Assembly: GCA_947561395.2 (NCBI GenBank)
Contig: OX387182.1
Span: forward strand, 40,231,949 to 40,295,948
Length of the DNA stretch: 64,000 nt
Source of the DNA: Buxus sempervirens
Lineage: Eukaryota > Streptophyta > Magnoliopsida > Buxales > Buxaceae
Direction of reading: 5' to 3'
The notes below the pieces were generated by a model. That model was given only the letters and a program-made list of their open reading frames with translations, was not told the DNA's origin and ran no database searches. Shown here one piece after another: positions 10,547 through 53,416 of the stretch. Each line of letters opens with the position of its first letter. Position 1 is the first letter of the stretch. A program made the translations under genes and the position numbers.

Positions 10547-10690
10547 TGTATCCGATATATCAGATCGGATACAAAAGGCTCCTTTCATATCTGACGAAAA
10601 ATGTCGGATACAAGAGAAACTATGTGTATCCGATATAACTTGTCGGATACAAAGAAATACCAGTGTATCCGATCTGATATATCAGATACA
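10547..10690. promoter_or_regulatory. Phased palindrome array in front of antisense gene 1 (four units, 39-bp period)
   Basis: Four palindromes have centres at 10560, 10599, 10638 and 10677, exactly 39 bp apart. Each has arms of up to 10 bp (consensus TGTATCCGAT/C and its complement) around 7 nt. Spacers read ATATCAG, GAAAAAT, ATAACTT and CTGATAT; the first and last are reverse complements of each other. The second and fourth units carry single arm mismatches. The array begins about 12 bp upstream of the minus-strand TATA box. The same arms and period occur in the solo LTR at 15988-16131. Confidence 0.85.
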
Positions 10691-10876
10691 AAGAAAAAAG
10701 GCAAAAAAAGAGAAAATGGAGAAAAATCCGAATTTTTTTACCTGTTTTACCTGTGTACAAGTTATAATTGCATAAAAATAAGAAGGGAAAAGAATAGAAC
10801 AAGAGAGAATGAGTAAAAAAAAAATTTTATATATACAAGTCTCTTTGGTACAAAGGTGATGTAAATAATAACAATC

Positions 10877-13672
10877 CTAATCTACTGTGCAGGATCGCCC
10901 CCGCGCTCCTCTGTGGGCTCTACCTCGAGATGATCGACGCCTAGAATATGCTAGAAGTCTCTCCGCCATGTAGCGCAGTCTCCGACCCACAATGGATTGA
11001 AGCTGATACTCCAAGCAATAGTCTGAAATGTCAGGAGGCAGGTCAGGAGCAGCATCTGGTGAGGAAGCCTCAGGCCCAGCAGGAACAGGCTCGACTGGCA
11101 AGGGAACCACCTCAGGTGCAACCGGGTCCACAACCGTATCAGTCTCGACTCCCGCAGCTCCAGAATGCTCCGCAGTGGCAGAAGAAGGACCAGGAACAGA
11201 AATAGCCGGGTCAATGGAAATAAAGTCAGAAATTGAAGTATCAAAATGAACCAAGGAGGTGAAGCTAAAGAAAACTTACCAGGGATGTCTGCAACAGGAA
11301 CTGGGGGATCCTGCTCAATCGGGTCAGCAACAGGGATGTCCTCTGGCTCAGGAACCATTGCTGGAGATGAAGGACCCACAGGATCCGTAGGAGCAGTGGG
11401 CACAGGAGGAACAACCAGATCAGCAGCTGGGGCGTCCTCAGGATCAGCAGCCCGAACCGGAGATGGGCCCGAAATAGGAAGGTTCAGCCCAACTAAGACG
11501 TCATGATCTGGGACTGGATCCTGCAAAAGTCAAATAGTTCATATCAAAACAGCAGAGAAACATGGAAATAAAAGAGATGAAGAAGTGGAAAACTATATAC
11601 CTGTCTGGCCCGAAGCTCAGCAACCAAAGTCTCCAGCTCCCTAATCCGGGCATCTCGTTGGACCACAACTGCATCGTGCTCAGCAATCAGATCATCGATG
11701 GCGGCCCGCTAACTCTGGAACCGATCCCTAAGAGCATTCAACTCCTCTACCTGCCAATAAGAATGGGATTAGATTCACAAATACTGAATTGAAGGAAATA
11801 AGATGAACTTACAGTGTCATCATGGACCCGGATGTAAATCCCGCCAATCTCTGTCACCCCGGCATGAGTGGGTCGATCCATTAGGCATCCAATGGACACC
11901 CTCCTGATCCACTCGTCTTAATCCCTAGCTACTGTAAGCCCCTCCGCATCCTGATACTGATCAAACTGGCCAATGTCAAAACTAGGCAGGAGTGTGTCGG
12001 GACCCACAGGAGGAGGGGGGACTGGGATACGAGGCATGCCTGTGTGCTGATAGTACAGGTGCTCTCCCAGGTACATCACCCTACCAAGCCTCCCAATGAA
12101 GCACGGGTGGGGCTGACGTCGGAGGTCTCGATCAAAAGCATCCTGTACTATCAGCTCACGGGCAACCCCGATATCCACATCCTCAAAGCGTGCTCATAGG
12201 AGCTACAAAGAAGAATAATGGTGTCAGATACAAATAGGGTACAGAAAAGAGATAAAAGAGAAAGGGATCAAGAATTTTACATCAGATCGTTGGGCACGAT
12301 CCAAGTGAACCCGAGCAATACGAGGCTGACTCCTGTCTGCATCTCTGACCTGGGCGGACCACCGCAGGGCAACAGGGAACTCCGCAACACCGGGCACGGG
12401 GGACGGGCGGAAGTAAGTTATGTAGGTGTACATGAACACCTGGAAAAAGAGAAATCAGCCAAGGATAAAGAAGATAAAGCCTAAGGAATAAGACAAGGCA
12501 GATGAATTTAGTACCTGCAGGATCTGCCAGAAGAACCGGCAGCTAACTCCATCACCTCTCGGAGTGGCCAGGCCTCGAACTACTCGGCACAATCCAGCCA
12601 AGATAGTCCCATATATAAGCCGACCCCATGCTAACTATCGGGTTTGGTGGAGATCTCTCAAAGCATCCAAAAAGAGAGGACTAACACTGGTCGTGTCCTC
12701 CTGGAAGAAGCAACTCCCGAGCATCAGTAGAAATACATACCGGAATATAGGTGCAAAGGCTGCATCCTCCACAGTAATGGTCGCGTGTCTCCCCTCAAAG
12801 TGTCAGGTAAGGCTCTCCCGCAGCCAACTAATAGAGATACAACCGCTCCGCCCGTCCCAAGCAGCATCAGGCAGGTTCTGGTATCCCAAGAGAAGGCCAA
12901 TGTCTGCAGCTAAAGGCCTGTCCAACACAATAGTCCGCCCCATCAGAGGAATGCCGGTGATCATAACAAAATCGGAAGGGCGGATCCCCAGCTCCACGTC
13001 TGGCAAATGAAAGGACTGCGTCTCCGAGAAGTACCACTCCATCATGGCAAAAATAAGGGGGCGGTCAGCTCGAAATGCGGGGATGCTAAGAAAATAATCC
13101 AGGCGGCACCTGCCGAACTCATGCCGGAGTGCCAGAGAGAGTGTCTGCACCAACTCACTGAATCTCCCCCAACTGCCTCGTAGATGAGAAGGAGGATACG
13201 GAAGAGGCACATCGGCATGGATGCACATGGAAGGGTGGCTATCCAAACCACTAAGGAGCTCTGTATCATGAACAGACGCTCTCAACTCCGCAGAGATCCC
13301 TATGCGGAAAGCTATAGCAACACCCTCCTGGCCTGAAGCTCCGGCCCGGCCTTGGCCCCTCTCTCTGGCTTGGTCTCGACCCCTCTCTCCAACTCTGCCT
13401 CCGCCTCTCTCTCGGCCTCTACCGCGGCCTCGAACAGAAGCAGCAACAAGCTAAAAACAGAAATGAATAAGCGAAGTCGGTTTCAAGGGAAGCAAGAAAA
13501 GAAAGAAAGAATTGAGAAACCTACCTCAACAGAGCCCTCTCCAGAGCTCTCTCTGGAATCATCTAACGGCTCCGACAGGGTGGCACTAGAACTCGCCTCT
13601 GTCCGAGCCCGAGAAGTGGAGGATGATCAGCAGGGTCAGCCTCCTCTCGAACACGGGAACGACTCCTAGACA
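10877..13672 (-). pseudogene. Antisense plant-mobile-domain protein gene 2 of the Tat element, multi-exon
   Basis: An ATG lies at 13672-13670. Exons bounded by GT-AG sites: 13672-13525, 13450-12515, 12439-12281, 12203-11813, 11750-11601, 11520-11280, then a last part ending at 10877 whose junction I could not fix. Exon 2 starts with an Arg/Gly-rich stretch (RGRGRGRERGGG) and then a plant-mobile-domain-like region (LIFAMMEWYFSETQSFHLP, VMITGIPLMGR). The exon at 11750-11601 is a coiled coil. The C-terminal part is Pro/Val-rich and ends in RRRSSRGRAHRGARGR, a basic tail. In-frame stops are present in several exons, for example a TGA at the start of the fourth, so this copy is inactive. It lies head-to-tail with antisense gene 1 and has its own palindrome pair upstream. 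The function is not known. Confidence 0.65.
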
Positions 13673-14852
13673 TCTACAAGCCACAGGCAAGTGTTTTATG
13701 ATTTTCAGTTCAAGTTTATCAGGAATTTTACCTTGCTTTGGGTCTAGGTTTCGGTTCTAGTTCATCAGGGATCTTACATGATTTTTTTCAAAATTGTGTC
13801 TTGAAGGAATCTTATTTTACTTCTATCATCTGTTTCGGTTCAAAATTTTTTAAGTAATTGGTATTTCTATTCCGATTCTAAAGCTTTTTGTCCTAAGGAT
13901 ATCTACAAGGCTTAATATCTGCTAATTTATTGCAGGACTCCTACATGAAAGCCGGACAGTGATGCAAAGGCAAAAGGTCTCAGCTAATCAAAGATAAAAA
14001 TGAACTGTGGAACCTAAGGACCAAGCAGGTAAAAGTGCTGGCAGTCGAAGCACCACTTTGGTTAAAAGCATGCTAAAATCAAATTAAGGGAAAAATAGAG
14101 CATAGCATAGCATCTGGCAATCGGTTCTAAGAGAATTACAGATCAGGAAAAAGCCAAAGTAAATTGCAGCTTTATATCAGCAATCCATACAGTCCAAGAG
14201 CATGCAATCAGCTATTAAATAAATACCACCAGCAGTCAATTCAAAGTTCTTGGATACTGTCAATTCAAGGGAATCACCCAATAAACGAGCCATTGTTCTA
14301 AGGAATCATAGACCAAGAATTGACAAGTCGAAGCAAATTGCAAGAAACAAGACAGCAAAATGGCATGGTATTAAAGTTTTACCATCAACAGTATTGAAAA
14401 TGCAGGATTGGAGGATCATTTCATTCGTCCAACATTCTAATTAGACATGGATTTGATTGCAAGAAAAAATCTGAACATGAGCTCACTGACCTGGACGAAC
14501 AGTGGGGAATTGAGCGTCTGATTGCAAGTATGGAATCGAAGTAGAGAAGGACAGGTCGCCGGAACGATCACCGGAGGTCGGCACTCCCACGCTGAGCTGA
14601 GAAAATCACCGAAAATCAGAGGAGACTGAGCTAGGGCTCGACCATTGCCATGAATGGGCGATCACTGGAGTGTTGCTGAAGTTAAGGGCTATCGCCGGCA
14701 ACAATGGAAGTCGTCGAAGAGAAAGTAAGTCACCAGAGAAGAAAGAGAAGCTGTCGGGGACGAAGAAGAGAAAAGGGGTATCTGATTTGAGTATTCGGAG
14801 AAGAAGAGAAGAAAGGAAAAGTCGCGGTCGCGCGCGACTAAATAAAAACAGG
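13673..14852 (-). other. Presumed 5' leader region of antisense gene 2
   Basis: No coding region is supported. The stretch lies between the first ATG of antisense gene 2 and the palindrome pair at 14853-14916, so it would be 5' untranslated sequence, possibly with an intron, if transcription starts near 14830. A TATA-like TTTTATTTAG (minus strand, about 14838-14847) lies next to the palindromes. Confidence 0.4.
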
Positions 14853-14916
14853 TGTATCCAACGAAACATGTCGGATACAAATAGGGCATTTCTTATCCGA
14901 CCGATTATGTCGGATA
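14853..14916. promoter_or_regulatory. Palindrome pair in front of antisense gene 2 (39-bp period)
   Basis: Two palindromes are centred at 14866 and 14905, 39 bp apart. The first has 10-bp arms with one mismatch (TGTATCCAAC/GTCGGATACA). The second has perfect TATCCGAC/GTCGGATA arms around CGATTAT. Spacers are 7 nt. A TATA-like sequence on the minus strand lies about 20-25 bp downstream of the first centre, the same order of elements as at antisense gene 1. Confidence 0.75.
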
Positions 14917-15414
14917 CAAAAGAAAAACAGAAAAAAAAAAGAGAAAAAAAGAAAGAAAAAAAGAGAAAGAGAAAAGGAAAAAAAATGGGAAAAAGGAGAA
15001 AAAGAAAAGAGAAAAAGGAGAAAAAAAAAAGGAAAAAAAAAAGAAAAAAAAAAGGTAGAATGTGTGCTACAAAATCTGCTATTTTCAGAAAAAAAACCCT
15101 ATTTTTGGCTTAAAATCCACGTCATAGCCACGAGAGCTCAGTGGAATTTAGGACAACTTGGGGAAATGTGTTGGTCAAAAGGAAAATATTCATTCAATTT
15201 TTAACTTGGTTTGAAAAATCAGTTTTCAAAAATCTCATTTTGGGCTTAAAATCCGCTTCATAGCCACGAGAGCTCAGTGGAATTTAAGACGTCTTGAAGA
15301 AATGCCCCCCTTAAAGTTAGGGCTTTTTGGCAAATGTTCACCCAAAATTATTTTGCGAAATTGAATTGAACCAAGCAATTCATGGTTAAGGGAGCGCAAT
15401 TTGGGCTTGTTTAA
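14917..15414. repeat. A-rich stretch and a 136-bp direct duplication before the polypurine tract
   Basis: From 14925 to 15055 the sequence is almost pure A/G. Then GGCTTAAAATCC and the following CATAGCCACGAGAGCTCAGTGG occur twice, starting at about 15107 and 15243 (136 bp apart), with small differences. Each copy holds the self-complementary CCAC...GAGCTC...GTGG. No gene is visible. Confidence 0.7.
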
Positions 15415-15458: not shown

Positions 15459-15987
15459 TGTAGACACCCCATTTTACGGCTAGAGAAAGGTTTTAGGTAC
15501 TTCGATCTAAGTTTGGGGGTACATACACACTGAGGCTCTATCCTAGAGAAAGTTAGAAGATGAGAGATTGCTCAAAATTAAAGAAGAAGTGTTGAAAATT
15601 AAAGATAAAAAGTCCCTTGTGAGCTTGAATGCCTTTGATAAGTGTGAGAGCGAAATTGGGTAGAGTTTCTCCTTCTCCAACAAGAGACTTCAATCGGAAA
15701 ATTTACAACTCTTTGTATGAAGGAGGACCCCTCTATTTTTAGGCAAAAGGAGGGGCAAGTGATTTCCAAGGGTATGAACCAAAAATCTCTCCAGATCCTT
15801 CCAATTGAGGTTCAAAGCATGCTTAGGAAGGAATTAGAGGGATTTTCTAGGGTAGATTTGCCAAGCCAAGGCCTTCAAAAAGAGGTTGTAGACACCCCAA
15901 ATTGCATAGTAAAAATGATGAATAATTGGCAAAAATCATTCTTTCCTTTGAAACCAGCACAAAATTTGAGAAATAAGCATTTTTTCT

Positions 15988-16131
15988 TGTATCCGACAAC
16001 TCAGGTCGGATAAAAGCATATCCTTTCATATTCGACAGAAGTTGTCGGATATAAGCAGGCGTAAATGTATCCGACGACATATGTCGGATACATATATGTG
16101 CTCGTGTATCCGACCTGATATGTCGGATACA
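15988..16131. promoter_or_regulatory. Phased palindrome array in the solo LTR (four units, 39-bp period)
   Basis: Centres lie at 16001, 16040, 16079 and 16118, each exactly 39 bp from the next. Arms are TGTATCCGAC/GTCGGATACA in the best two units and slightly shorter in the others. Spacers are AACTCAG, AGAAGTT, GACATAT and CTGATAT, all 7 nt. The array ends about 165 bp upstream of the TATA box at 16296. Confidence 0.9.
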
Positions 16132-16295
16132 AGATTTTTGCTCAAAATTAGGGTTTTCCAAGAGTTTTCACTTTTACCATCATATCCTTCATTAAAGGAG
16201 TGGAAATCTCAGAAATAGCCTTAGGATTAAGGTTGGTGGGCTCTAGACATTATTTTGTGTCTAGCATCATGCAAACCCTAACCTTAGCCTTTGCC

Positions 16296-16304
16296 TATAA
16301 ATAG
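16296..16304 (+). promoter_or_regulatory. TATA box of the solo LTR promoter
   Basis: The site reads TATAAATAG and sits in the same context (GCCTATAAATAG...GGC) as the TATA box of the related LTR at 56612-56620. It is the expected U3/R promoter of the LTR. Confidence 0.75.
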
Positions 16305-18610
16305 GAGGCTCCTCCTTAAGCAAATGGCTAATAAGTTGGAGATTGAAGAGCTCCGAGTGAAGAAGGGAACTGCTGCCGCATTGCTTCTAGACACCCAGGT
16401 AAGCCTAAACCCCTCTTTATTTTTCTGTCTTTACATTCTAAAGTTAGTTCTTTTCTTCTACCCCTCTGTAGAATAAGGCCTACTCTATGTGTATGTAAAC
16501 CCTTCCTCTACTCAAAGTACCTCAAGACTCCCCCTAGCCGTAAAACGTGAAGGCGGGATCTAGGGGAAACGAGACTGAGGATTGATCCTTAGTGTTAGAA
16601 CCTTGTTGAAAAGCCTTTTGAATCTATGAAAACCGTTTCATACTCAAAGTACCCCAAGATTATCTCAAAGAACAGTAAAACGGGGAGAGAGAACTAAAGG
16701 AAACGAGAATGGAATGGAACCCTAGGTCTTTTTAGAACCCCCATTTGATTGATATGAATGCCATATGTGGTTATGTTGTACTTAAAGAAATGATTTGTAC
16801 ACATGCACATATTGCACTTGTTTTGTCGGATTTGGCTTGTATTTTGGATCTATTGCCGTCATTGTGGTAGATCTCAAATAAATAGCCCCAAGCAATTCTG
16901 GGATGTTCATTATCGATTTCAATCAAGTTTATTTCAAATCTAGAAGACCTCTAGGTCTAACCTCTCGGTTTTGGGCATTTTTTGCTCAACTTTAGGGTTT
17001 TTGGCATATTCTTTCCAATCGGAGGGAATGGTGAGCCAACCTTGTACCCTATTTCTTCCTAGAGGTTCTTCAACTTTTTTTTAAATGATTTTGATTCATA
17101 TTGCACGGTTCACACACATCTTATCACTGTTTTGAGTTGATTTTCTTTAAAAAGGCTGAAACTGGACAGCAGCTATACCCCAACTTCGGACACTCGTAAC
17201 TTCATCGTCCGGATGAATTTTGGAGTAATTCCAAAGCCATGGGAAAGCTGAGGCTGTATATTTTATGCCTGCAAAATTTTATTAATTTTTATGGAGTGGA
17301 TTTTTGACACCTCTCAGTCGAAATTGATAGGTCAGTTCAGGTATGATTGTAGAACTTGTCACTTCGACTGAGCGCCAGGTGTTCGTTTTAAGTCCGATTC
17401 GAGTGATTATTGTTTCTGTGTTTTCCATCGGAAGTCTAATTTCAAATCCAGTTGGTTTCATAATTTTTTAACTCCATTTGTGTCGTGGGTAACAGATTTA
17501 CTCAGAACTGCTCAACAGCACTTTTCTGGGTTAATCTGTGATCCTCGGGGCCTGTTCGGGAGGTCACCCAAGGCACATCCGGATGAATTTTTGTATGAGG
17601 CTAGTTTCATTTGAAATATGGCTCTACATACTTAATTCATGCCAAATTTCACTGATTTATATAGAGCCAATTGTTCTAAATGAATTTCCAAAGTTGCCCG
17701 CTTGTTACTTTTACTGATTTCCAACAGCAACTTTCAAAGGAGCATAACTCCTAGGATTTTAACCAGATTTGATTGAAAATTTGCATGAGTCTTCTATTTA
17801 TCATAATCTTTCAAATGGATTTGGTTTGATCCAATTTAAATTAGATTTGAATGATTTCAAGACAAATGGCTCTAGCTTTTACCGAATTTTCCGGATTTGT
17901 CTCAATTTGGTTTTATTCAAGTTTTGCTTTGATTTCCATCTAATGGTGATATTCCAGAAGTGATAATGATATAAAAGAGGATCTGGAATTCATTTGGATT
18001 TCTCATGTGAAAGTATCATACATTTGTTTAATCCTTTTTCAAGGTTTTTGATTATTTTAGCAAGCCTTCGTTATTTTGAGCATGAACAACACTTGGCAAC
18101 CACCGTGTGCGGGTGAGTGGGGGTGCCTAACACCTTCCCCCATTCATAATCTAATCCCCTTACCCATCTCTGGATTTGATTTTCAAGTAGAGTTATTTTT
18201 ACTCTAGTATTTGCCTTTTTGCTCTTTTTGATGATTTTTGGTGTCCATTCACACCTTTAAAATTGGATGGTTGCGACTCTCCCATTTTCGTTGAGCCCAT
18301 GTGTTGACGGAGGGGAATCATCTCGGTGATTTTTCCATGTCTCACAGAGGTACAAACCATAAGTAAGTCATAGGTCCCGGCCTTTTACGTTTTGTCAATA
18401 TTTGTGTGGAACAGTATATACAGTGCGATGCATGTTACACTGCACTTATATTACGGTTATTACAAAAAACACCACCATATATATATATATATACGGTGGA
18501 ATTTCTAGTATTCTCCCATGTGGCACTACTGATGTGGCATAATGACAGAATCTTCCATATGCTACGTCAGATGACCAATTCCACGCACACACATGTGATC
18601 GATTGTTTGG

Positions 18611-19717: not shown

Positions 19718-19989
19718 AACCGTATGAACTATACGGTTGATTCGAAATGACGTTTTGTGGTGCGCTACTCGAGCAGCAAATCATGATGCGCGGTGCTAAT
19801 TGATGGGACTAAAAGCAACCATACTGTATATATGGTTGCATTTAGCCCACTGATCGATGCGATGTGTGCGTCAGTGGCTATCCCCTCATTAATGTTGAAA
19901 AGACCGTGCTCAACCGTATGTATTATATGGACATGACCAAACCGTATGAGCTATACAGTTTTGACCAAACCGTATAATGCATACAGTTT
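19718..19989. promoter_or_regulatory. Palindrome array upstream of the TATA box of LTR B
   Basis: Units have ACCGTA-type arms around 7 nt. Centres are 19728 (AACCGTA/TACGGTT, spacer TGAACTA), 19827 (GCAACCATA/TATGGTTGC, spacer CTGTATA), 19922, 19950 and 19978. The last three are exactly 28 bp apart, and the last ends about 13 bp before the TATA box TATAAAT at 20003. Spacers TGAACTA and TGAGCTA match TGATCTA in the second array of the same LTR. Confidence 0.8.
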
Positions 19990-20009: not shown

Positions 20010-21243
20010 TGAAAATCCGAACACAGATTTTGCGTTGGTCGTTTTTTTCTATTTCTCCTCTATTCCTTTGCAACTCCAACCTCCAAAATCACTCCAAAAC
20101 CTTCTTGAATCCTTTCAATCTCATGGATAAGCCTTAAGAAATCCCTCCCATCTTCTTTGATCCCTTCCTAACTATCACCCAAGATTTGGGGAGCTTGACA
20201 AAGAAGGGAAAGGAGCTGCTCCACCTATTGTGAAGGCTTCTCAAGGAGTTCAAGCCAAGCACCTCCAAGGACCTTTGTCCATGAAGGTAAAGTTTCTTTC
20301 TTGTTTTCATACAGCTTATATGATTCTAAGTGAGTAAATAGCATTATTTTTTAGCTTTTATATCCTTGGCTCCTCTCTTCGTGCTCTTCTCCTCTCTTAT
20401 GTTTACTTATCCTCTCAAAGAAGTGATCCATCATGAGGTAAGAATATGCAAGGGTGGTCATGTAAGGGAGTGAGAGGTCCATGGAGACTTTCAAGGTCTT
20501 TTAAGGCCACTTAGTTATATTCTTTCTCCCCCCACATCTTGATCACTGTACCCTTTTAATCCGCCCACTTCCTTTCTTTATTTAGCTTACTTCATTCCCT
20601 TAATGCAAGTGTTGGTTTCCTTGCATTGTGTGTTTTAATTCCATGAGTTTAGTAAGGAGTATACATATGACACTGAATCTGCATGCATGTGTTTGAATGT
20701 TTTAGTTTCCTTATTAATATCATGGTTGCTTGCTTGATGTTTGGACTTGTCTAACTCTTGTCTCATTTCGTTCTCCAGCATGATTTCAATCAATATGCAC
20801 CCACATGCCATGTACACACCACTGGTTTCAAGCATGTATTGGATGATGCATTTAGCTCTCCTATATTATATTTGTCTGCTAATTGTGTATCATGTGTGGT
20901 TTGGCCGTGGACTTTAGAAAGAGGCCTCTCGGGCCCTCAACCACCCCTTCATCCTTTAAGGGAGTTGAGCTTGCTTCTTGAACTGAATGTGGAGAACCCA
21001 TTCTCTATTTGAATATCGGGGACTCCGTCTTAGAAGAGGGAGAAGGAGCCCCAAGCCCTTCTCCCTACACCATTTTGGCTAATCATGTAGGGAATGGGTT
21101 AAAGAAGCTTAAAATCAATTTGGAGCCCTCTGAGGGCCAGTCCAGTGGCCCACACATGCCATCAGTCTCACCTGAAAAGGGGACCCCAAAACTCCCTCGG
21201 GAAAATTAAATTTGCTTAATTCTTGTGTAAACCGTAAAATCAT

Positions 21244-21319
21244 GCTGTATGATCTATACGGTTTCACTAGAACTGTATGATTTATACGATTTTGCCAGAA
21301 CCATATGAATTTTACGGTT
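21244..21319. promoter_or_regulatory. Second palindrome array of LTR B (three units, 28-bp period)
   Basis: Centres lie at 21253, 21281 and 21309, exactly 28 bp apart. Arms are GCTGTA/TACGGT, AACTGTA/TACGATT and AACCATA/TACGGTT; spacers are TGATCTA, TGATTTA and TGAATTT. The array lies about 1.25 kb downstream of the TATA box, the same arrangement as in the gag-only element LTR. Confidence 0.8.
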
Positions 21320-22068: not shown

Positions 22069-23269
22069 TGTAAGTGTGAAAACTCACACTCCTTATATGG
22101 CAAATGTTTGACAAATTATATCCTCTAATAATCTTCAAGATGTGCAGAATCAAAATATAAATTCTATGAATTTTGTAAAGAGGAAAGTGAGGCTGCCACA
22201 CAGCTACCACGCCGCTGGTAGCTCAAGGAAATCTAAAAGAAGAACATTTCGTAAAGGCACTTGCAATGAAGAACGCCGCTGCCACTCCGCTGGCAGCGCA
22301 TAAGTGAGATAGCACTTTGAAATTAAAGCACGCGTACCAGCTTCGTAAGGTGACGCCGACACGCCGTTGGTAGCGCAGAGCAAGATTGAAGATCTACAAA
22401 TCAGCTGTGCACATGCCGCGTTCCCTCCCGCTAGCAGCTCGCTGGCAGCGCGCCCTTAACTGGGTCTTTTGGATTTGAGTTCGCTTCCAGCCGTCTACCC
22501 CGATCGCGCCACGACGCCACCAGCGCTCGACGCGATCTGAGATTTCTTCTTTAAATAGACGAGCTGTATTCTTTTTGAAGTGACTTTTTCTTTTGATTAA
22601 TCTGTTGTGGATCTTGAGGTGTTCGAGATTCATTCAATTGATCTTTAGAGAGTCGGTGATCGAGTGAGGGGGAGATCTGAGAGAGATCACCTGGAATTGA
22701 AGTTAGAGGATTCTTCTTCGGTTCGGAACTTCACTTGATCGTGAGATCTCCTGGATTGGTGATCGACTTTGTTTGATGCATAGGTGGATTCCTATTGCAT
22801 TGGATCATCTCAGTGGACTCTGAGGTGATTGTCACGATCTGGATTGATCGTGAATTGCAGCTTGTGGATTCAAGCTGTGTTGCAGTTCGTGGATTCGAAC
22901 TGTGGATCTAGATTGATCGTCTCTTGCAGCTTGTGGATTCAAGCTGTATTGCAGTTCGTGGATTCGAGCTGTGGATCTGAATAGATCGTGATTTGCAGCC
23001 TGTGGATTCAGGTTGTGCTACAGTTCGTGGATTCGAGCTGTGGATTGCTGTTGAGTGAGTTCAATTGTAAAGGTTAAGTGTGTTTCCTTTTGTAATTGAC
23101 TTTCATTCAATAGTGTAGTTTCTAAGGGTTAGTCGCCTCATATAGACTCGAGGTTTTTCTTGGATCTGGATTCAGGTTTCCTCGTATAATCTCTGTGTGT
23201 TGTTTCCGCATTGTTAAGTTTTTAATTGTTGTAGATCGTGGACCTTTAGAGTAGTCCTCTACTCTTTTA
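22069..23269 (+). mobile_element. 5' LTR of the Copia element
   Basis: It starts TGTAAGTGTG and ends CTCTTTTA; the 3' copy ends CTCTTTCA, so the terminal CA has mutated here. A TATA-like TTTAAATAG lies at about 22550. The GC-rich part at 22210-22530 repeats CGCTGGCAGCGC-like motifs. From 22858 it carries three 69-bp repeats made of short hairpins. Confidence 0.9.
22858..23040. repeat. Hairpin repeats in the Copia LTR (3 x 69 bp, six stems)
   Basis: Six perfect or near-perfect stems with 7-bp arms surround the same 6-nt loop TGGATT: CAGCTTG/CAAGCTG alternates with CAGTTCG/CGAACTG or CGAGCTG. Centres alternate 25 and 44 bp apart, giving three 69-bp units. The fifth stem is changed on both arms (CAGCCTG/CAGGTTG), which nearly keeps pairing. 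A second copy lies at 31936-32118. The array is downstream of the LTR TATA box, so it would be transcribed. Confidence 0.85.
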
Positions 23270-23270
23270 A

Positions 23271-23284
23271 TTGGTATCGGAGCC
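23271..23284 (+). promoter_or_regulatory. Primer-binding site of the Copia element
   Basis: TTGGTATCGGAGCC follows the LTR after one base. It matches the usual plant initiator-methionine tRNA primer site TGGTATCAGAGC with one difference. Confidence 0.85.
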
Positions 23285-23329
23285 TATTCACTTTGAATTG
23301 CTATACAAAGTGTGATCTAGATCTATAGC

Positions 23330-25200
23330 ATGGACTTTGGAAAAGAAGGAGGATCTGCCTCTAGACCTCCATTATTCGAAGGTAACAATTATTCTTACTG
23401 GAAAGCAAGAATGAGAGCTTACCTGAAATCTATTGATGAGCGTGTCTGGCTCTCGGTTTGTAATGGTTATCATCCACTTGAAATCACAACAGAAGGAGGT
23501 GTTGTGATGCCTAAACCTCATGATCAGTGGAGTAAAGCTGAATCTGATCGATGTGGATGGAACAAAAAGGCAATGAATGCCTTATTTTGTGCTGTAAGTG
23601 TTGAGGAATTCAGGAGAATTTCCTCATGTGAAGTCGGTAAGGAAGCTTGGGACATTCTTGAGGTTACTCATGAAGGAACCTCAGCTGTCAAGCTGTCTAG
23701 ACTTCAAAGACTTACAACATCTTTCGAAACTCTATACATAAAAGATGATGAGTCTTTTGATGAATTTTATGCTAGACTGTCTGATATTGTTAATTCGAGT
23801 TTTAACCTTGGAGAAAAGATCTCTACATCTAAGGTTGTTAGAAAAATCTTGAGATCTTTGCCTGAAAAATTCAGACCAAAAGTTACTGCCATTCAAGAGG
23901 CAAAAGATGTTGATACCATGAGAATTGAAGATCTGGTAGGATCTTTACAGACTTATGAGCTTGATCTGAATATTCCTAAAAGAAGTAAAGGAATCGCTCT
24001 AAAATCTGTAAATAATGAAGAATCAAATAATTCTGATGTAGATATGGATGAATTAGTTCTCTTAGCTAAAAAGTTCAAGAAAATGTTTAAAAAGAGACAA
24101 TCTAATCCTGTGTTATCCATGGACAGATCTAATAGAAGATCTGATAAGAAAGTTTCTGATCTAAGAAAGGAGAAGAAATTTTCTCAGAATGATGAAGTTC
24201 AGTGTTATAAATGTAGAGGATTTGGACATGTTGCTTCTGATTGTCCCTCAAAGGATAAAAAGAAAAAGACAAATTATCAGGTTGCTTGGGATGACAGTAA
24301 TACTGACAATTCTTCACAATCAGATGAGGATATTTCTGCTAATTTTACTGCTTTCAATTCCTTTTACTCATCTTCTTCTGGTAGTTCAATCTCTGGCATT
24401 GCAGGAGATAATAAAAAGACTTTATCAGATGATGAAGAAGAATTACAAGAAGCCTACAATCAGCTCTATAAGGAATTCAATAGAGCTCAGAAGAAAGTCA
24501 AGAAACTGAGTAAAAAATTGAAGGAGTCAGAAACAGAGAAAAATAAAGCTTTTGCAGAAATAGATTCAATAAACAAGAAGTTACTTGAAAGACATGCCAA
24601 AGAAAATTTTCTAGTAACTTCTTTGACTGAAAAAACTGAAAAATTAAAAGAAAAGGAAGCTCAGATTTCTGCACTTCAAGGTAAAGTTATTTAACTTGAG
24701 AAAGTTTCAAATTCAATTCAATCTAATGCTTCAAATTTTTCTACAGAAAATCATCAAGTTGATAAGGAATCAACTTCAAAGGAAGTTCCTGAAAGCTCAA
24801 ATTCTGCTGAAAAGAGAATGAGTGTAAGTAATCAAAATAAGGAATCTTCACAGAAAAATTCTGCTGGAGAAGTAAGCTCAACAGGTAAATCTTCAAAATC
24901 TGAAAAATCTAAATCTGTACAGTTTAGAAATACTGTCAAATCTGGAAATTTTGATTCTTCTGAATATAGATTCATACCTGTGTGCCATCATTGCAATAAA
25001 AAGGGTCATATAAGACCAAAGTGTTATGTTTTGCATGGTTTTCCCAATGGAGGTTTTGACAGTAAGAGGAAAGTAAATCAAAGTCAGTCCTTGGATTTAT
25101 ATAACAGATTTGATTCCTTGTTGAAATTGACTGAATCATTAAATAAGGAAGTTACAAATCTGTCAAAGAAACTTCCTTCAAAATCTCAAGTTGTTGATGA
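23330..25200 (+). pseudogene. gag: Gag of the Copia element, one premature stop
   Basis: An ATG at 23330 opens the gag frame. The first 250 residues are the Copia gag core (YWKARMRAYL, then LSRLQRLTTSFETL). A first zinc knuckle CYKCRGFGHVASDC lies at about 24203-24244, followed by a Lys/Glu-rich coiled coil. A TAA at 24692-24694 interrupts the frame, which continues unchanged to a second knuckle CHHCNKKGHIRPKC (about 24980-25024). Two knuckles separated by a coiled coil are typical of the long SIRE-type gag. The stop is one base from a sense codon, so it is probably decay and not programmed readthrough. Confidence 0.85.
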
Positions 25201-34448: not shown

Positions 34449-34457
34449 ATTTATAAG
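34449..34457 (-). promoter_or_regulatory. TATA box of the gag-only element LTR
   Basis: On the minus strand the site reads TTATAAATA in the context GCTTATAAATAGC. It is about 27 bp downstream of the nearest palindrome centre (34480). The copy in the 5' LTR is at 45172-45180. Confidence 0.7.
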
Positions 34458-34466
34458 CAAACTTAG

Positions 34467-35292: not shown

Positions 35293-35337
35293 GCTGCCCC
35301 CCTTTGTCGAAGTCACTTGTTTGATGAACGACAAAGG
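35293..35337 (-). promoter_or_regulatory. Polypurine tract with stem-loop, gag-only element
   Basis: On the minus strand, AAAGGGGGGCAGC directly precedes the LTR. Its upstream part CGACAAAGG (plus 35301-35309) pairs perfectly with CCTTTGTCG (plus 35329-35337), 9 bp around a 19-nt loop. The Tat element has the same arrangement at 15415-15458. Confidence 0.8.
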
Positions 35338-39682: not shown

Positions 39683-39839
39683 TATGTTAGTTTCTTCCGA
39701 AAATGGTCTGCTCCTGTGCGAGGGCAGCCGTGGTTTAGAGTGCCGTGTGTGGCAGAAAAGTGGTGTTTTTTAAAAAGGTAAACTCTGCTTTGTGCTGATG
39801 CTGTGAGTGGTGACAAGGAATCTTTGCACTGCGGACAGC

Positions 39840-40735
39840 GCTGCGACCGTGCGTGACAAACGCCGTATGTGGCTATGCATGAAAATGAAATGTCTTGAAA
39901 GCTGTGCTATGCCAAGGATTGGCAAGGGTAGCCCAAGGGTAGACGCCGTATATGGCTATATATGAAAAAGAAACATCTTGAAAGCTGTGCTATCCCGTAT
40001 ATGGGAAGGGTAGCCCAAGGGTGAATGCCGTATATGGCTATATATGAAAAAGAAACATCTTGAAAGCTGTGCTATCCCGTATATGGGAAGGGTAGCCCAA
40101 GGGTGAATGCCGTATATGGCCTTCTTGAAAGCTGTGCTATCCCGTATATGGGAAGAGTAGCCCAAGGGTGGATGCCGTATATGGCCTTCTTGAAAGCTGT
40201 GCTATCCCGTATAGGGGAAGAGTAGCCGAGGCTGTGCTATCCCGAACACGAGAAGGGTAGCCTAAGGGTGGATGCCGTATATGGCCTTCTTGAAAGCTGT
40301 GCTATCCCGTATATGGGAAGGGTAGCCCAAGGGTGGTCGTCTTGAAAGCTGTGCTATCCCGGGTATGAGAAGGGTAGCCGAAGCTGTGCTATCTCAAACG
40401 CGAGAAGGGTAGCCCAAGGGTGAGGGTGCTGTGCTATCTTGCATATGAGAAGGGTAGCCTGAGCTGTGCTATCCCATATACAAGAAGGGTAGCTGGAAGG
40501 TAAAAGTGCTGTGCTATCTTGCACATGAGAAGGGTAGCCTGAGCTGTGCTATCTCACGTACAAGAAGGGTAGCTGAAAGGTATGAGAGCTGTGCTATCTT
40601 GTACATGAGAAGGGTAGCCTGAGCTGTGCTATCTCACGTACAAGAAGGGTAGCTGAAAGGTATGAGAGCTGTGCTATCTTGCACATGAGAAGGGTAGCCT
40701 GAGCTGTGCTATCTCACGTACAAGAAGGGTAGCTG
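39840..40735 (-). repeat. Tandem array of hairpin-forming units in the leader of the gag-only element
   Basis: GCTGTGCTATC recurs about 20 times. Each unit pairs GCTA(T)CCC-like and GGGTAGC-like ends around a variable centre such as CCGTATATGGG. In the left half, units are 64-81 bp and include GCCGTATATGGC. In the right half, from about 40428, 35-bp and 45-bp units alternate in an 80-bp higher-order repeat. It lies between the primer-binding site and gag on the minus strand, so it would be 5' leader RNA. Confidence 0.85.
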
Positions 40736-40779
40736 TGCTTGGAAATTTTTAACAATGACTTTTGAAATCTTGGTTTTGG

Positions 40780-41330
40780 TGCCGCAGATGGCAAAGTGAT
40801 TTTTTGAAGACCTTTTATTGGTTCGGTGCCGTAGACGGCAAATGGATTTTTTTTTGAAAATTTTAGGATTCTGAAAGATTGGCTTATAACATTCTTTGGA
40901 AATCTTTTTTTTCTGATGAGGTTTTACTGTTTTGACGGCAAGACCCGAAATCGTGCCGAGACTGGCAAAATTTGAAATTATTGCTATGAGGAAGCAAAAA
41001 TGGGGGGCATTGGAATTAGTTCCAAATGTCATGCCATGGATGGCATTGCCCCAGTTGAAAAGGAATGTATGCCAAGAAAAGGCAATTCGATGTTTCTCCA
41101 GGGTGACAGCTCGATATAACCATGGAAAATGGTTTATCTTGAGTCACGGGAGATCTTTACAAATGTACGTCATGGAAGACGATTTTGATGTAGGCCCAGA
41201 GGCCACTTAAAGCTGTTTTTTTTTTTTGAAAAGCAATTTGCACCTCAAAAGGCGGCTTGATGTACGCCCGGAGGCGGTTTGATGTATGCCCTGAGGCACT
41301 TTGATGTACGCCCGGAGGCGATTAAATTTT
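40780..41330 (-). repeat. Scattered TGCC-N6-GGCA stems and GCCCGGAGGC repeats in the leader
   Basis: TGCC-N6-GGCA occurs at 40780-40793, 40827-40840, 40954-40967 and 41032-41045, with a longer-loop form at 41070-41084. Further on, TTGATGTACGCCCGGAGGC-like units repeat three to four times at about 41185-41330. Both motifs are self-complementary and continue the hairpin-rich leader. Confidence 0.7.
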
Positions 41331-42835
41331 GAAAATTCTTTTTGTGCAATTTTTCAAAGCAGTTTTGACCAAAAAGTGTTGGCATGGTTTTGATTTTGAA
41401 ATTGGTGCAACTCGATGTGCAAATGATTTATGCATGCGCAGGACGGTAAGGGCAAGTATTGCAAGGCTTGACATCCTCCAAACGGAAAAACACAAACAAA
41501 ATTGAAATGTGTGTGCAGTCCTAAGAGGGTTGGTGCCAGCGAAGGCACAACTCCTAGACATACTTGTGTAAGGAAGCACATCCAAGTCCAAATCAGTCTT
41601 CTCATCTGTTCTGAAGGATCTCTGCTGTCTGATTGAAGAACTGCTTGCAACTTGCCAGCAAGGGCGAAGTCACTTAAAGCCTAAAAAGCTGGAAAAGTGT
41701 TCGATCCCAGGGTTGTTGGGAACCCTAGGATAGGATACAATTGATTTTAAAAGGGTAGGCTGAAAAGTCCTAGATCTAGGGTTTCACTGCCCCTGCTCTG
41801 GTCTGGACTGCTTTCATCTGCTTTTTCTGATCTGGCCAGCTTTCGTCTGCTAAAAAAGACTGATCTGGACTCAGGGTGCTTCCCGCGGACTCAATGGGTC
41901 AAGGCCCACGGCACACATGACTCAATGCATGGATCTGGGGTGGTTCCCTTGATCAAAGTTTGGTAGGTCTCCTAAATTAGGCTGAGGTAGCCCATGATCT
42001 AGGGTTTACTCAGTTGGATGCAAAAAGCGGGGGTTGCTGCCCCTGATGGACTCTTGGATTTTAAGTTGATTTTACTCCTTTTGTATTCATCATTCATATC
42101 ACCCTCGCAATATCAAGCGCGGTTTGTTCAGAAATGTTAGGTGGGGGAGGATACCCAGCCCGAGACATAAGCCTACAAGGGTCTGGACCAGTACTGGATC
42201 CTCGCGTGCCACGGCAAGAATCCTGTGGTGCTAATGGACTCCAGAAAACTGGGGGGATGGGTTTACCCTGCTTTCCCCGGCAAGCCACGGGAGCGTAGGT
42301 GCTAATACCATCCCAAAGATCAGTTCGTAGGAATCAGAAGGGTAGGCTGCTAGAGAGGTCTAAGTTTTGGAAAAGAAGATGCAGCATCCGCTCTCATTCA
42401 TTCAGGGTCGGATCACCCACGCATCCTCCCTCGTGCGTGTCACCCCACGCAGTTTATCACACAACTAGAAAATAAATCCATCCACGGTGTGGTGGTGTGC
42501 CCGTATGTGCATTTGGGCCAAGTGCGGTGTCTAACCGGGTGAGATTTGACTGGATTTTGTTGATAAAGGAATTTTTACCGTCTCGTATAGTAAGGTGCAG
42601 AATTGGCACACAATACGAGGTTCCGGGAGAGTCCCCAGGTAAGTGGAGGGTCACAGGGGACCGCTTAAATTCCACTTTCCTTAGGCGATTATCATGTCCT
42701 TGTGACAGGACTCCCCAGAATACGCAGTTGCGTGTATTCCACGTCTTACTGAGCAAGGTAGTAAAAAATCCTAGATATCAACTAATCCCTCTTAGGTTGA
42801 CTCAATCTAACCATGGGTTCTATTGGACTGAGAGG
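41331..42835 (-). other. Leader sequence next to the primer-binding site, gag-only element
   Basis: No gene is supported. The stretch contains several GGATCC/CTAGGG-type motifs and lies between the hairpin-rich part of the leader and the primer-binding site. It is transcribed as untranslated leader if the 5' LTR promoter is used. Confidence 0.6.
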
Positions 42836-42853
42836 TCCCCAGTGGAGTCGCCA
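42836..42853 (-). promoter_or_regulatory. Primer-binding site of the gag-only element
   Basis: On the minus strand, TGGCGACTCCACTGGGGA follows the 5' LTR end after three bases. This form is common in plant Gypsy elements of the Tat group. I do not assign the tRNA. Confidence 0.8.
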
Positions 42854-43898
42854 AGCTGTGCGCACCCCTTTCCGGGTCGCACTGGGTGAAAGTGGGGGTT
42901 TGGAGTCGCCACCGCCTGATGGGGTGCAGGCGGACACCTGGGTGCCTAGATTTTCTATTAAATTGGTCTGCGGCTTGAGATTCTAAGTAGGTTCTCGGTT
43001 GCGGTCTGGGGAAGTCCGTAGACACCCCAGTCCACCCCGTCAAGCGACGGGTCCCATAGGTTTCCCTGGTTTGAGTCAACTCTGGTCTCTCACTCACCCG
43101 ATTCCTAATCCAGCATTCAAATTGGTTTAAGTCTGGCGGGACCGCCAAAGTGGTGTGGGTCCCTTTACTTGATTTTATCTTTTTAGTTATTGAATGAAGT
43201 GAGTCTGATTGGGTGGGCCCCGTTGGAAGGCCCACGGATCCCTTGGTGGGCCAAGTGTGGCCCACATGTTCCCTTGGTGGGCCTCAGTCTAACCCTGAGA
43301 GGCCCTTTGGGCTTTGGTTCAAGTGAATTGATTTTACTTTAAAGTTTGAGTTTGATTATTTAGTGATTTCCATGCAAAGGGGGCCGGATTGCTTCGCGGG
43401 CCTCTGAGTGGGCCACACAATGGCAGCCAAAAGATTCATTGAGCTTTATCTTGATTAAGTTCCAAAAATGGGCCAGGCCTTGGGCTTGGGGCCCCTTTTT
43501 ACCTGGGCTTGGGCTTGAAAGCCCAAGACTTCCTGAGTTACGGTCCTGAAACCCTAACCTTGGTTTAATGGGCTTTAGTGGGCCCGATCGGCCCTACCCG
43601 CAGTCTCGGCCAAACCAGTCCTAGATCTAAGCATGCATGTTGCCCCAGTTGGGCTTTGATGGGCCTCGCAGGGTCTGGCCCACTCAATTCTTTTAATTAT
43701 CTGATTTAAGCACAATAGGTGTGTCGGGCTTGTTGGGCCCCGTTGGAAGGCCCACCGGGATCAAGCTGGACCGGGTCGGTCCATGGCCCATATCGGGTCT
43801 CTGGTTGACCCAGAAGCCCTTTTGGTTTGCTTGGATTGGTCAACAAAGCACAAAAAATAGCAAAGATCATCAAAAATAGCAAAAATGCAATTTGCCAG

Positions 43899-44003
43899 TG
43901 TAGCCGGCCTGAGATGCCGGTTACACACAAGGCTCTGTGTATCCGGCATCTTTAGCCGGCTACACGTGGGCTTCAGTTGATCCGGCCTGAGTTGCCGGAT
44001 CAA
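43899..44003. promoter_or_regulatory. Second palindrome array, 5' LTR of the gag-only element
   Basis: Same three units as at 33176-33280 (CCGGC-type arms, 39-bp period), at centres 43912, 43951 and 43990. Here the array would lie inside the transcript, downstream of the active TATA box. Confidence 0.85.
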
Positions 44004-45189
44004 CACACAGAATCCATTTTTTTTTGGATTTTTCCAATGGGGTTGGTTTCTTGGGTCTCCTAGGGTGTTCTAACATTTGTGTGGGCTCCTATGTGAGCCC
44101 ACAGTGGTTCAGGTGAGAGGGAATGCCCCAATTTTGCCTTCTTTTGGGACTTGGAGGGTCCAAGCAAGGAGGAGGGGGCTTAAGGTCTTGCCTCCTCTCA
44201 TTTGAACCCACCTCTAGCAATCACACAGGGGCCTTGATGTCCCTGTTTGGTTTTCACAAACTCCGCATGACAGCAAACTAATAAGGTGAGGCGAAGACGG
44301 TAAACTAAACCCAATAAACATGCTTTTGAACCATGGAGAATATGCATGCATTCTTGTGTGTTGTGAGCATGAAAAGTGAAGAGCCTGTGGGTGTGCTCGT
44401 GCATGCCCTGAGATAGCTAACGACTCAAGCATGCATAATGGCCTAGCCTAGCTCTAGTGGATGTGTGAAGATGTACATGCACGCATGCCTTAGAGGCTAC
44501 CAAAAATATACAAGAATCAAGTTTCCACACAAATAAAGGAATCAAGGGAAGAAGGGATAGAGGAGGGCTTATGATGGGATACATGAGAGTCACGAAAGGG
44601 GAGAACAAACTCCCCCCTTCAAATGAGACGAATCCACGACAAGCCAGTGTATAGAGGGCTTTTAGAAGTGAGCAAGATCACCTCTTCATCCTCCCATGAA
44701 GCCATCTACATACTCTCCCCTTACCACAGGAGTTTCCACGTCCAATACAAAGGAGAAAGGAGGGGAGAAAAGACGCTACTCATGCCAAAAGATAGAGGGA
44801 AATACCATGCAAAGGATGATGGACATACAACATGCTTGAAATAAACCTCTTTTTATTTATGTTGAACAAAATGCCATAGAAAACATTACCTTGGGGTTAG
44901 ATCCTTGGAATGAGGTGTGTTGAGCCTCCTTGGAGTGGAGAAAACCGCCGGAGCTCCTCCTTTTGGCACCACCAGCAAACAGTCCTCCCTTGGCTTGGGT
45001 GAAAAAGGGAGAAGAAGAAAGGAGTGAAGGGGAGAGCCTTGAGGTTGAGCTTGGAGTGTTTTGGGGAGCCAAAGAGGGGTAAGAAGAGGGTGTTTCGGAG
45101 CTGGAACAGAGGGGAAGAAAGGTGGAAGCAAGCAAAAAGAGGCCAGCCCGGAAATCAGGCTGCTGTTTGCTATTTATAAGCAAACTTAG

Positions 45190-45437
45190 TGTATCCGGAC
45201 TTCAAGTCCGGATACACTAAGGCTCCTTTGTATCCGGACTTGAAGTCCGGATACACTAAGGCTCCTTTGTATCCGGTCTTCAAGTCCGGATACAAACACA
45301 ATCATTTTTAAAATTAAATGCCGCCGCGAGCTTGTCGGTCAAGTGGCGTGAATCCTGCGCAAATATCTTCATATATCCGGTCTTCATGTCCGGATATGAA
45401 GGAGGGGCAGTGTATCCGGTATACATGACCGGATACA
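45190..45437. promoter_or_regulatory. Palindrome array upstream of the TATA box, 5' LTR of the gag-only element
   Basis: Same five units as at 34467-34714, at centres 45203, 45242, 45281, 45385 and 45424. The nearest unit is about 27 bp upstream of the TATA box that should drive gag. Confidence 0.9.
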
Positions 45438-47134
45438 AATCGAAAAATTACGGATTTGCCCTTCGACTTGACCGATTCGACCGATTTGACACTTTTGGAT
45501 ATCTACGGATTGCCCCGCACGAATTTTTGTTTAGTCCTTGAGATTTTTGGATATTTAAGATTTAGCCCTGAGATATTTTGCTGCATTGGCTGCCACGTGT
45601 GCAGTTCCTGCGCCACGTGTGCAGTTTCCGGCTTTTGCTGCCCGGAAACTTCGACAGCTCATATCTCCTTCATCTGATCTCCGATTTGAGCAAACTCAAT
45701 TGCGTTGAACTCGTATCGGAGCCCTCTATTCGATGACATAGGGTTAAGAACTTGGCACGGGGTACGAGGAAAAGTCAACTTTCGGCTCATCCTCAAGTTT
45801 GACCGCCCGGAGAACCCTCATCCGGACTCCGATTCCAGCAAACTCAGTTGCGTTGGAACCGTGTCGAGATTCTCTATCCATTGAGATGAAGCATGGTGAC
45901 CAATTTTCTCTTAATCAAAAGGTCAATTCTTAATCCCTCAGGGTTTGACTTTTCTGCTGTCTTTTATCACATTTTTTCTCTTTTATTTGGTTTAATCAAA
46001 ATTTGGGTGCTTACATTGAGTGAGTTCAATTGTAAAGGTTAAGTGTGTTTCCCTTTGTAATTGACTTTCATTCAATAGTGGAGTTTCTAAGGGTTAGTTG
46101 CCTCATATAGACTCGAGGTTTTTCCTGGATCTGGATTCAGGTTTCCTCGTATAATCTCTGTGTGTTGTTTCCGCATTGTTAAGTTTTTAATTGTCGTAGA
46201 TCGTGGACCTTTAGAGTAGTCCTCTACTCTTTCACCCTCATAGGAGTGCACCAGGCTTCCCTTAAAGAGGGACCCACTCTCCCCCTCGTATCTGTACGCT
46301 ACAGACCGACGTGCACATAGGTCAGCTAAAAAAAAACAAAACAAAATGCTATGTGTGATATGAATATCCTAGTAAGCAGCACATGCATGCATAAACAGTT
46401 CATATATAAAAATAACTTTCTTCTATGCTTGGAAAAATAAACGAATAACTTGACGATAAAAATCTCAACAGATAAACCAAACCATAAATCAATAAAATCA
46501 ATCCATAACAGCTCAAGATAAATCAATACTTATGAAAGAAAGAAATGCCAACCAATCACGGTAAAGTACCTCAATGTCACCCTCAACATACAGGCAAGCT
46601 AAATCTCTGCATGTGAATAATCAACCACATAATTTTTATTGTTCAAAACAAATTCCAAACCAAAATCATCCCACAAACCAATGTGTTAGCACCCCATTTT
46701 TTCACCATAAAATGGCCCAAGAAACATATCTTAAACCGGTATATATGTGAGCACGTAAATCGAGGTTTTTATAGTGGATCCGTCTTTTTGAAATAACAAG
46801 CCCATAATAAAGAGAATTATGAGCCGATTCCGATGCACCAAACCGTGCTCAAATTGGATCTCAAACGGCTAATTTATGAATAAAAGAAATAAAGGGTAGT
46901 TTGGGGATTTTTATAAAACCGAAATTGAATGCCACATGGCAGCCATGTGTACGCCATGGTGGCTGCTATGTAACCAATGATAAATTAAAATTTTCGGGGT
47001 TCTTTTAGTAAATAAGTAAGTTTCCTAATGGGGGTTGTTATGCAAATAAATAAAAAATTTAATAACAAAGTTAATAAAAGTTTTAAGATTAAAAGAAAAT
47101 AAAAAATAATAATAATAAAAATAAACAAAGAGAA

Positions 47135-53156: not shown

Positions 53157-53168
53157 GGGGGGGGGGGG
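53157..53168. repeat. Poly-G run
   Basis: A run of about twelve G interrupts LTR H before its palindrome array. Its length may be unreliable in the assembly. Confidence 0.8.
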
Positions 53169-53313
53169 TGTTTGCTTATTTACATGTAATATCTTAAGTA
53201 AATGGAGATTAAAAAAATACGAGGACATTTACTTAAATGATATTACATGTAAATAAGTATTGCCTGTGTAGAAACAGGTCAAAAAAGTGTAAAATTTGGT
53301 CAAACATGAAATG

Positions 53314-53416
53314 CCCGTATTTTATCTGCGGTCTGGTCGTGCCTGTAATTGATATACGGTCATGCCGTGACCGTATTAATAATACGGGCAATGCACGACC
53401 GTATTATATATACGGG
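53314..53416. promoter_or_regulatory. Phased palindrome array in LTR H (four units, 28-bp period)
   Basis: Centres lie at 53323, 53351, 53379 and 53407, exactly 28 bp apart. Cores are CCGTA/TACGG (first unit CCGTA/TGCGG, second CTGTA/TACGG); spacers are TTTTATC, ATTGATA, TTAATAA and TTATATA, all 7 nt. Without the nested LTR the array lies about 200 bp upstream of the TATA box, the place where the homologous LTR at 15887 has a 39-bp-period array with other arms. Confidence 0.85.

Follow-up and report, generated by a model that had tools for sequence, protein, structure and literature searches.

The closest described arrangement to the one analyzed here is that of the repeated-motif (RM) boxes of Sireviruses. 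These palindromes, present in many copies and with a CGG-CCG signature, are located in the long terminal repeat (LTR) upstream of the TATA box, and also upstream of the env-like gene where there is one. According to the portions of the paper used here, their arms differ by element, no common binding factor was found, and the motif is absent from the other ("classic") Ty1/copia retrotransposons compared (PMC2829016). Here, we describe arrays of palindromes in a 64,000-nucleotide stretch of the Buxus sempervirens genome (the window, C1:40231949–40295948; genome of 676.5 Mb in 247 contigs), including those of a retrotransposon that we term element 1 (E1). As judged from sequence, the arrays are found within LTRs of Ty3/gypsy elements and before genes antisense to gag-pol. 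With a probability of roughly two in three, they would be family-specific operators for a dimeric DNA-binding factor shared by the LTR and antisense promoters of an element.

The likeness to RM boxes consists of an LTR palindrome that has the CGG-CCG signature and precedes TATA, and of further copies upstream of an extra gene, which is env-like there and encodes a DUF7745 protein here. However, RM boxes belong to Ty1/copia elements, whereas the pol genes of E1 and of another genomic locus, L020, are of Ty3/gypsy type. On our reading of Table 3 in PMC2829016, the half-sites of RM boxes are separated by shorter gaps than the CCG-N11-CGG found here, and no fixed phase is described in the portions used, in contrast to the 39- or 28-bp phase here. 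The arrays here are also tied to an antisense gene. Relative to the Sirevirus boxes, the rigid phase, the common core, the antisense-gene link and the superfamily are different. A preliminary description of the window knew of no described plant LTR system of such form, but RM boxes are a precedent. The literature consulted, as titles and starts of abstracts with thin coverage of subscription journals, contained no description of such arrays in gypsy elements.

The closest functional analogue, by comparison with partial accounts, is provided by the target repeats of VANC in the VANDAL DNA transposons. These are element-specific short motifs, arrayed in non-coding regions, that change together between relatives and are bound by an element-encoded anti-silencing protein (PMC5735166, PMC10398659). 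Element-specific motif arrays that change together are found here as well. In contrast, the motifs of VANC21 are reported in the same orientation rather than as dyads, the VANDAL elements are DNA transposons, and VANC contains DUF1985/DUF287; three antisense open reading frames (ORFs) searched here had no match to these domains up to an E of 10, although the filters used remove most matches above 0.1. The plant mobile domain (PMD) has been reported in gypsy elements across angiosperms, including gypsy-encoded PMD-A proteins, and antisense accessory genes are reported for Retand and Grande, in Grande with their own promoter and in nearly all Retand clusters as an antisense TRP28 ORF. PMD and antisense accessory genes in gypsy elements are thus shared with the present case, while operator arrays are not mentioned in the parts of these papers considered (PMC5418596, PMC9289625, PMC7264820, PMC11963269). 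Host PMD proteins MAIN and MAIL1 have been linked to a 'DOWN' promoter motif, according to the part of PMC7156037 available.

Phased arrays and their common core

All 28 palindrome centers given in the preliminary description carry dyads, several of them imperfect, with broken arms at, e.g., 10599, 10677, 14866, 19922, 21309 and 53323. In E1, an array of four units of the form TGTATCCGAC-N7-GTCGGATACA, one decayed, lies in the 3' LTR (15988–16131, centers 16001/16040/16079/16118). Two more arrays are associated with antisense promoters, the first with four units (10547–10690, centers 10560/10599/10638/10677) and the second with two (14853–14918, centers 14866/14905). An additional 39-bp array of E1 is located at L009 6467–6610, between the 5' LTR and gag. 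The LTR of a second gypsy element, on the minus strand, contains array A (34467–34714, centers 34480/34519/34558 and 34662/34701, with copies from 45203 on) and array B (33176–33280, centers 33189/33228/33267), which follows the TATA box at a distance of about 1.2 kb. Spacings of 28 bp are found in an LTR of a related family, again as an array A (19912–19988, ACCGTAT arms, centers 19922/19950/19978) and an array B (21243–21319, centers 21253/21281/21309) positioned like array B of the other LTR. A further 28-bp array with ACCGTAT arms (53313–53417, centers 53323/53351/53379/53407) lies downstream of an LTR-start-like sequence at 52734. Both related 3-kb LTRs thus have an array B about 1.2 kb past the TATA box, and L030 8910–8975 seems to contain a third copy, decayed and with different arms.

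The elements had been called unrelated, which does not agree with the LTR sequences. The 28-bp LTR (19247 to approximately 22068, plus strand) and the 39-bp LTR (32134–35292) have about 350 bp near their 3' ends in common at 73% identity, and the E1 LTR and L010 are 76–81% alike in two stretches. When the window was scanned for palindromes with a gap of 7 (8-bp arms, at most one mismatch), 97 were found, compared to 26–47 in five dinucleotide shuffles, and the commonest distance within pairs was 39 bp (18 pairs). Some of these pairs are duplicates, since the 3.2-kb LTR at 32134–35292 recurs at 42857–46015.

The genome-wide evidence on spacing covers the 39-bp class, for which exact patterns were counted with the reversed pattern as a control. 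GTATCCG-N11-CGGATAC occurs at 30,553 perfect sites and TATCCGAC-N7-GTCGGATA at 5,483, both with zero control matches. Among the first 50 sites listed for the former, 29 short distances comprise 22 of 39 bp, four of 78, two of 77 and one of 103; among the first 50 listed for the latter, there are 20 short distances, of which 18 are multiples of 39 and the others 103 and 72. A whole-genome search for a palindrome followed by the next half-site 26–56 bp on gave 2,662 and 2,641 matches on the two strands (control 0). From 100 matches listed, 48 array strings were compared, and the spacing is exactly 39 bp in 45 of them, with one each at 37, 41 and 43 bp. The linkers are nearly free, the central ten bases agreeing at 3.3 of 10 positions between strings, and the 45 strings contain 31 different loops. 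A sharply preferred value therefore exists for the 39-bp class; the claim of a fixed 39- or 28-bp period holds to this extent, but spacings of 27, 38, 41, 64, 77 and 104 bp also occur. Both main periods were also proposed to keep the sites on a set face of the helix. The difference between the two classes is indeed about one helical turn. DNA has 10.5 bp per turn, so that 39 and 28 bp correspond to 3.7 and 2.7 turns, and successive sites are rotated rather than placed on one face.

The core common to both classes is CCG-N11-CGG, the 39-bp class being CCG-N11-CGG-N22-CCG and the 28-bp class CCG-N11-CGG-N11-CCG. The 7-nt spacer, described as nearly universal, is typical of the 39-bp class, while in the best 28-bp units the unpaired center is 5 nt long. 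CCG-Nk-CGG was counted for k from 0 to 60 in four sets, and k = 11 is at the top of the histogram in each: the window (28; mean 5.3), the window after masking of the minus-strand gypsy element (11; mean 2.4; followed by k = 16 with 9), a background sample of 200 kb (30; mean 9.5, standard deviation 5.0), and the upstream regions of DUF7745 genes (48; mean 4.7, standard deviation 7.3). The sample consists of 20 genome pieces, including L020 and L026; L020 was picked with it and not selected for arrays. As expected for arrays, 25 of the 30 N11 sites in the sample sit in three of the pieces (L018, L020 and L025). Around the core, the flanks are family-specific: GTATCCG(A/G), ACCGTAT, CCCGTA, AACCG(T/C) and, in L026, ATCCGCA. 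The gap-7 scan of the sample found 237 palindromes, versus 147 in one shuffle, again with 39 bp as the commonest distance (6 pairs); in the gap-9 scan of the sample, 17 bp is the most frequent distance (12 pairs), followed by 39 bp (10 pairs). In the sample, L026 9285–9352 represents a further family: two units with ATCCGCA arms lie 28 bp apart, the second of them 25 bp from TATA. L025 contains chained CCG-N11-CGG sites at 28/27/28 bp (8485–8568) and one 39-bp pair (13–52).

Paired arms and promoter position

Positional alignment of units between families provides stronger evidence for paired arm changes than pairing counts do, on these sequences. Four units of the LTR arrays of E1 and L010 can be aligned without any gap. 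Both arms are of CCGA type in E1 and of CCGG type in L010 in 4/4 of these units, with the loops of units 1, 3 and 4 partly kept; one E1 half-site is decayed, and the base next to CCGG fails to pair in unit 2 of L010. The antisense promoters of E1 and L020 can be aligned with a single 1-bp linker gap and carry this switch as well in 4/4 units, two E1 half-sites being decayed. Both arms thus switch together in all eight aligned units, as the preliminary description had proposed for the arms in general. The counts agree: among 46 unique TATCCG-N11-CGGATA units, taken from 19 sequences, pairing at the two inner arm positions reaches 87% and 74%, versus 50% and 42% expected from base content, whereas the next three (loop) positions pair in 37%, 33% and 28% versus 42%, 46% and 27% expected. 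Twenty-five unique units from the GTATCCG-N11-CGGATAC listing, a smaller set, are in agreement with this.

The arm type also appears to be uniform within an element. E1 has CCGA-type arms in its LTRs, both antisense promoters and the internal array (L009 6480–6597), with several decayed half-sites. Genome matches listed on C1 include four cases (3409377/3425085/3429788, 3441584/3457186/3462129, 3679718/3695067/3699846 and 4234111/4249138/4254832) in which the same LTR array occurs twice, 20.1–20.7 kb apart, with an internal array 15.0–15.7 kb after the first. Each triplet is probably a single element, as the matching loops suggest, and all its listed units, which are those with perfect outer arms, are CCGG-type in LTR and internal arrays alike. 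In the two 3-kb LTR families, arrays A and B have similar arms within a family and different arms between families. The base after CCG is A, G, T or C depending on the family.

Distances to the TATA box were measured in fetched loci. The preliminary description often placed the nearest unit 25–30 bp from a TATA box; four distinct promoters have an exact core unit whose center is 25 bp away from TATAAA, counted outward to its first T. These sites are 10560 and 34480 in the window (the latter with an LTR twin at 45203), L020 4619 and L026 9321. The corresponding TATA boxes in the window, both on the minus strand, are those of antisense gene 1 (10530–10535) and of the minus-strand gypsy LTR (34450–34455). 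An inexact unit, at 19978, is also 25 bp from TATA (20003). The 25-bp promoters span three arm classes and comprise both LTR and antisense promoters. Within 10–200 bp of exact units, TATAAA occurs in 73 outward pairs, compared to 24 in the wrong orientation. The E1 LTR departs from the proposed range, its TATA box (16296–16301, plus strand) being 178 bp from the nearest palindrome center. The distances in the two LTRs of E1 are 178 and 179 bp, and E1-type LTRs have TATA at 178–180 bp in 8 of 12 arrays on C1 (12 of the first 15 listed array-string matches, three having been skipped). Of the remaining four arrays, L075, L076 and L077 end short on the expected promoter side, and L081 is without TATAAA.

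Antisense genes and a candidate operator system

The preliminary description had not recognized the genes behind two of the E1 arrays, nor the CCG-N11-CGG core and the arm type common to LTR and antisense promoters. E1 has ORFs on the opposite strand between pol and the 3' LTR. Antisense gene 1, with a putative first exon from ATG at 9732–10439 (minus strand; exon end placed by eye), matches DUF7745 (PF24924, E = 1.7e-14) and PMD (PF10536, E = 3.5e-11), and its protein is 81% identical to the L020 copy. The ORF of antisense gene 2 (12803–13450, minus strand) has a weak PMD match (PF10536, E = 5.6e-05, 22.9 bits), below the cut-off of 34.9. Both E1 and L020 combine a second RNase H with a PMD gene that lies antisense in the interval from pol to the 3' LTR, which would fit the Tat lineage of Ty3/gypsy elements with a PMD antisense gene, an assignment based on domain content alone. 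TRP28 (PF04195), a mark of Retand, had no match among the antisense ORFs searched at E up to 0.01 or 0.1, with shorter ORFs partly covered.

A genome search for DUF7745 gave 118 scored matches from 5,751 candidates, and every sixth was taken (n = 20) with 1.2 kb upstream. A chained array, i.e. exact sites 20–45 bp apart, is present upstream of 10 of the 20 genes, compared to 4 of 140 tiles of the sample. These ten genes and L047 form two operator classes, CCCGTA (28 and 27 bp) and AACCG (mostly 28/41/28 bp). In these two classes of 28-bp type, the proteins group by operator class, with 93–97% identity within and 79–82% between classes. A single protein compared from the nine genes with one or no site is 35–40% identical to the rest. 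By a generic periodic-palindrome score, L042 and L045 beat all 60 shuffles, while most of the 20 upstream pieces are unremarkable. This score is underpowered, with 2 of 4 positive controls beating all 60 shuffles, and the CCG-N11-CGG count was used instead.

In the mechanism that we propose, a symmetric dimer would contact CCG and CGG half-sites 14 bp apart as well as adjoining family-specific bases. Two to five such dimers, mostly at intervals of 39 or 28 bp, would line up in register upstream of the element's promoters, namely the gag-pol promoter in the LTR and the one or more promoters of the antisense DUF7745/PMD accessory genes. One factor may control all promoters of its element together, since the arrays of one element have the same arm type, and there may be one factor per family, since promoters match in arm type and the arms switch together kilobases apart. 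The factor would activate the promoters, or protect them from silencing, rather than repress them; this suggestion is based on the location of the arrays upstream of TATA and on their high copy number, and on nothing further.

Such a factor may be encoded by the element, most simply as the antisense DUF7745/PMD protein itself. This protein is the most economical candidate, although we consider its identity with the factor a tentative proposal, with odds of the order of one against two. In the complete form of this proposal, which we regard as possible but doubtful, gypsy DUF7745/PMD proteins would be element-specific dimeric regulators that bind phased CCG-N11-CGG sites at both their own antisense promoters and their family's LTR promoters, countering silencing, with the specificities of protein and operator changing together as families split. 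If the arrays are targets of the element's own PMD protein, they would represent the first proposed target for gypsy PMD proteins and, if so, a retrotransposon counterpart of the VANC system.

Several observations weigh against these proposals. The grouping of proteins fails for the 39-bp class, which lowers the odds for self-binding by DUF7745/PMD: L020 belongs to this class, yet is 84–86% identical to the CCCGTA class and 83% to E1, of its own class, so that the compared exon tracks operator class poorly. Ten of the 20 DUF7745 genes are without a chained pair (L047 with two sites 56 bp apart, four genes with one site, five with none). The minus-strand gypsy element has no DUF7745 among the window ORFs of at least 200 aa, and therefore the factor would have to act there in trans. 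The AlphaFold2 model of the DUF7745 domain, from 22 sequences, is poor (mean predicted local distance difference test score, pLDDT, of 47), and a sequence search of the PDB found no solved relative, leaving a DNA-binding fold without support; the protein had no homologue at E of 0.001 or better in the protein collection searched. As for promoter position, weaker distance peaks occur at 64 and 103 bp (25 plus 39 or 78), 88 and 10 bp. The unit at 14866 is followed about 22 bp on by a TATTTA-like sequence rather than TATAAA, no TATAAA is present within 60 bp after 53407, CCCGTA-type genes have TATA at about 33–34 bp, and no TATA was seen in the inspected flanks of array B and of the array at L009 6480–6597. 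The pairing counts are not independent trials, because units are related by descent.

Overall, the idea of operator arrays for a dimeric protein, already put forward in the preliminary description, is partly supported. It fits best among the explanations considered because of the exact spacing with free linkers, the pairing of arms but not loops, and the fixed TATA distance in several promoters. The same arrays could instead be sites of ordinary host transcription factors, such as stress factors, captured by LTRs. CCGAC is the core of the DRE (dehydration-responsive element) and is present in the arms of E1. The Sirevirus boxes mainly matched stress-factor sites in PLACE, according to the part of PMC2829016 used. 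However, families differ in the base that follows CCG, and this base changes simultaneously in every aligned unit, a pattern that a single fixed host factor would not easily permit unless several host factors were used in turn, and we consider a host origin unlikely, at about a quarter of the weight. Even with a host factor, some 30,000 perfect, rigidly phased sites in one genome would rank as a very large regulatory-site family and would offer a natural experiment in cis-trans co-evolution.

Selection of the dyads as RNA or cruciform hairpins, for example as sources of small RNAs, would equally predict that arms covary, and LTR palindromes of maize Sireviruses have been described as hotspots of small-RNA mapping (PMC5311732, in the part considered). 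Structure alone, however, requires neither a CCG-N11-CGG core across families nor an exact 39-bp spacing with free linkers, nor a fixed TATA distance. Furthermore, arrays A and the arrays of the antisense promoters precede their TATA boxes and are therefore not part of transcripts starting at these boxes, although sense genomic RNA would hold some of them. A hairpin origin is accordingly improbable, clearly more so than capture of host sites. Least probable, to the point of being hardly tenable, are passive tandem duplications without function. Some neighbors are clearly recent duplicates, as at 34480/34519/34558, where loops and linkers are in common. However, arms and spacing persist while loops and linkers differ widely between arrays, and the same core occurs in several families. 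For the 39-bp class, tandem duplication alone is insufficient, because units align one to one between families with changes on both arms.

Elements in and around the window

The pol of E1 (4179–7173, plus strand) consists of three ORFs with Pfam matches to RVT_1, RT_RNaseH, RVT_3, Integrase_H2C2 and rve, the last below the Pfam cut-off. The reverse transcriptase, RNase H, second RNase H (RVT_3) and integrase of E1 are of Ty3/gypsy type by sequence. The 3' LTR of E1 is at 15459–18346 (plus strand), and its 5' LTR, 96.4% identical over the main 2.1-kb stretch, is left of the window at L009 ~1875–4691; 20 kb adjoining the window on this side were also examined. The E1 LTR contains two LTR-start-like sequences after polypurine-tract-like runs, at 15459 and 15887, 428 bp apart. 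The second is also found in the 5' LTR (L009 2300), and L010, L018 and L020 begin like this second start. In the 5' internal region of E1, self-comparison offsets reveal strong tandem repeats of about 76 bp (L009 6903–7918).

The minus-strand gypsy element has its 3' LTR at 32134–35292 and its 5' copy at 42857–46015, with a gag ORF at 38000–39769 on the minus strand. LTR-start-like sequences of related families are found at 19247 and 52734. A copia element (RVT_2) occupies 22069–32135, and none of the gap-7 palindromes listed from the window scan falls in its LTRs. The minus-strand gypsy element (32134–46015) is located exactly at the end of a copia LTR, and copia internal sequence, 97.7% identical to 23051–23267, resumes at 46016 (region 22069–46232). 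This looks like an insertion of the gypsy element into a copia element that has more than two LTRs. L010 5156–7430 is an apparent solo LTR of the CCGG class, whose flanks are continuous in a window copy at 53581–56581.

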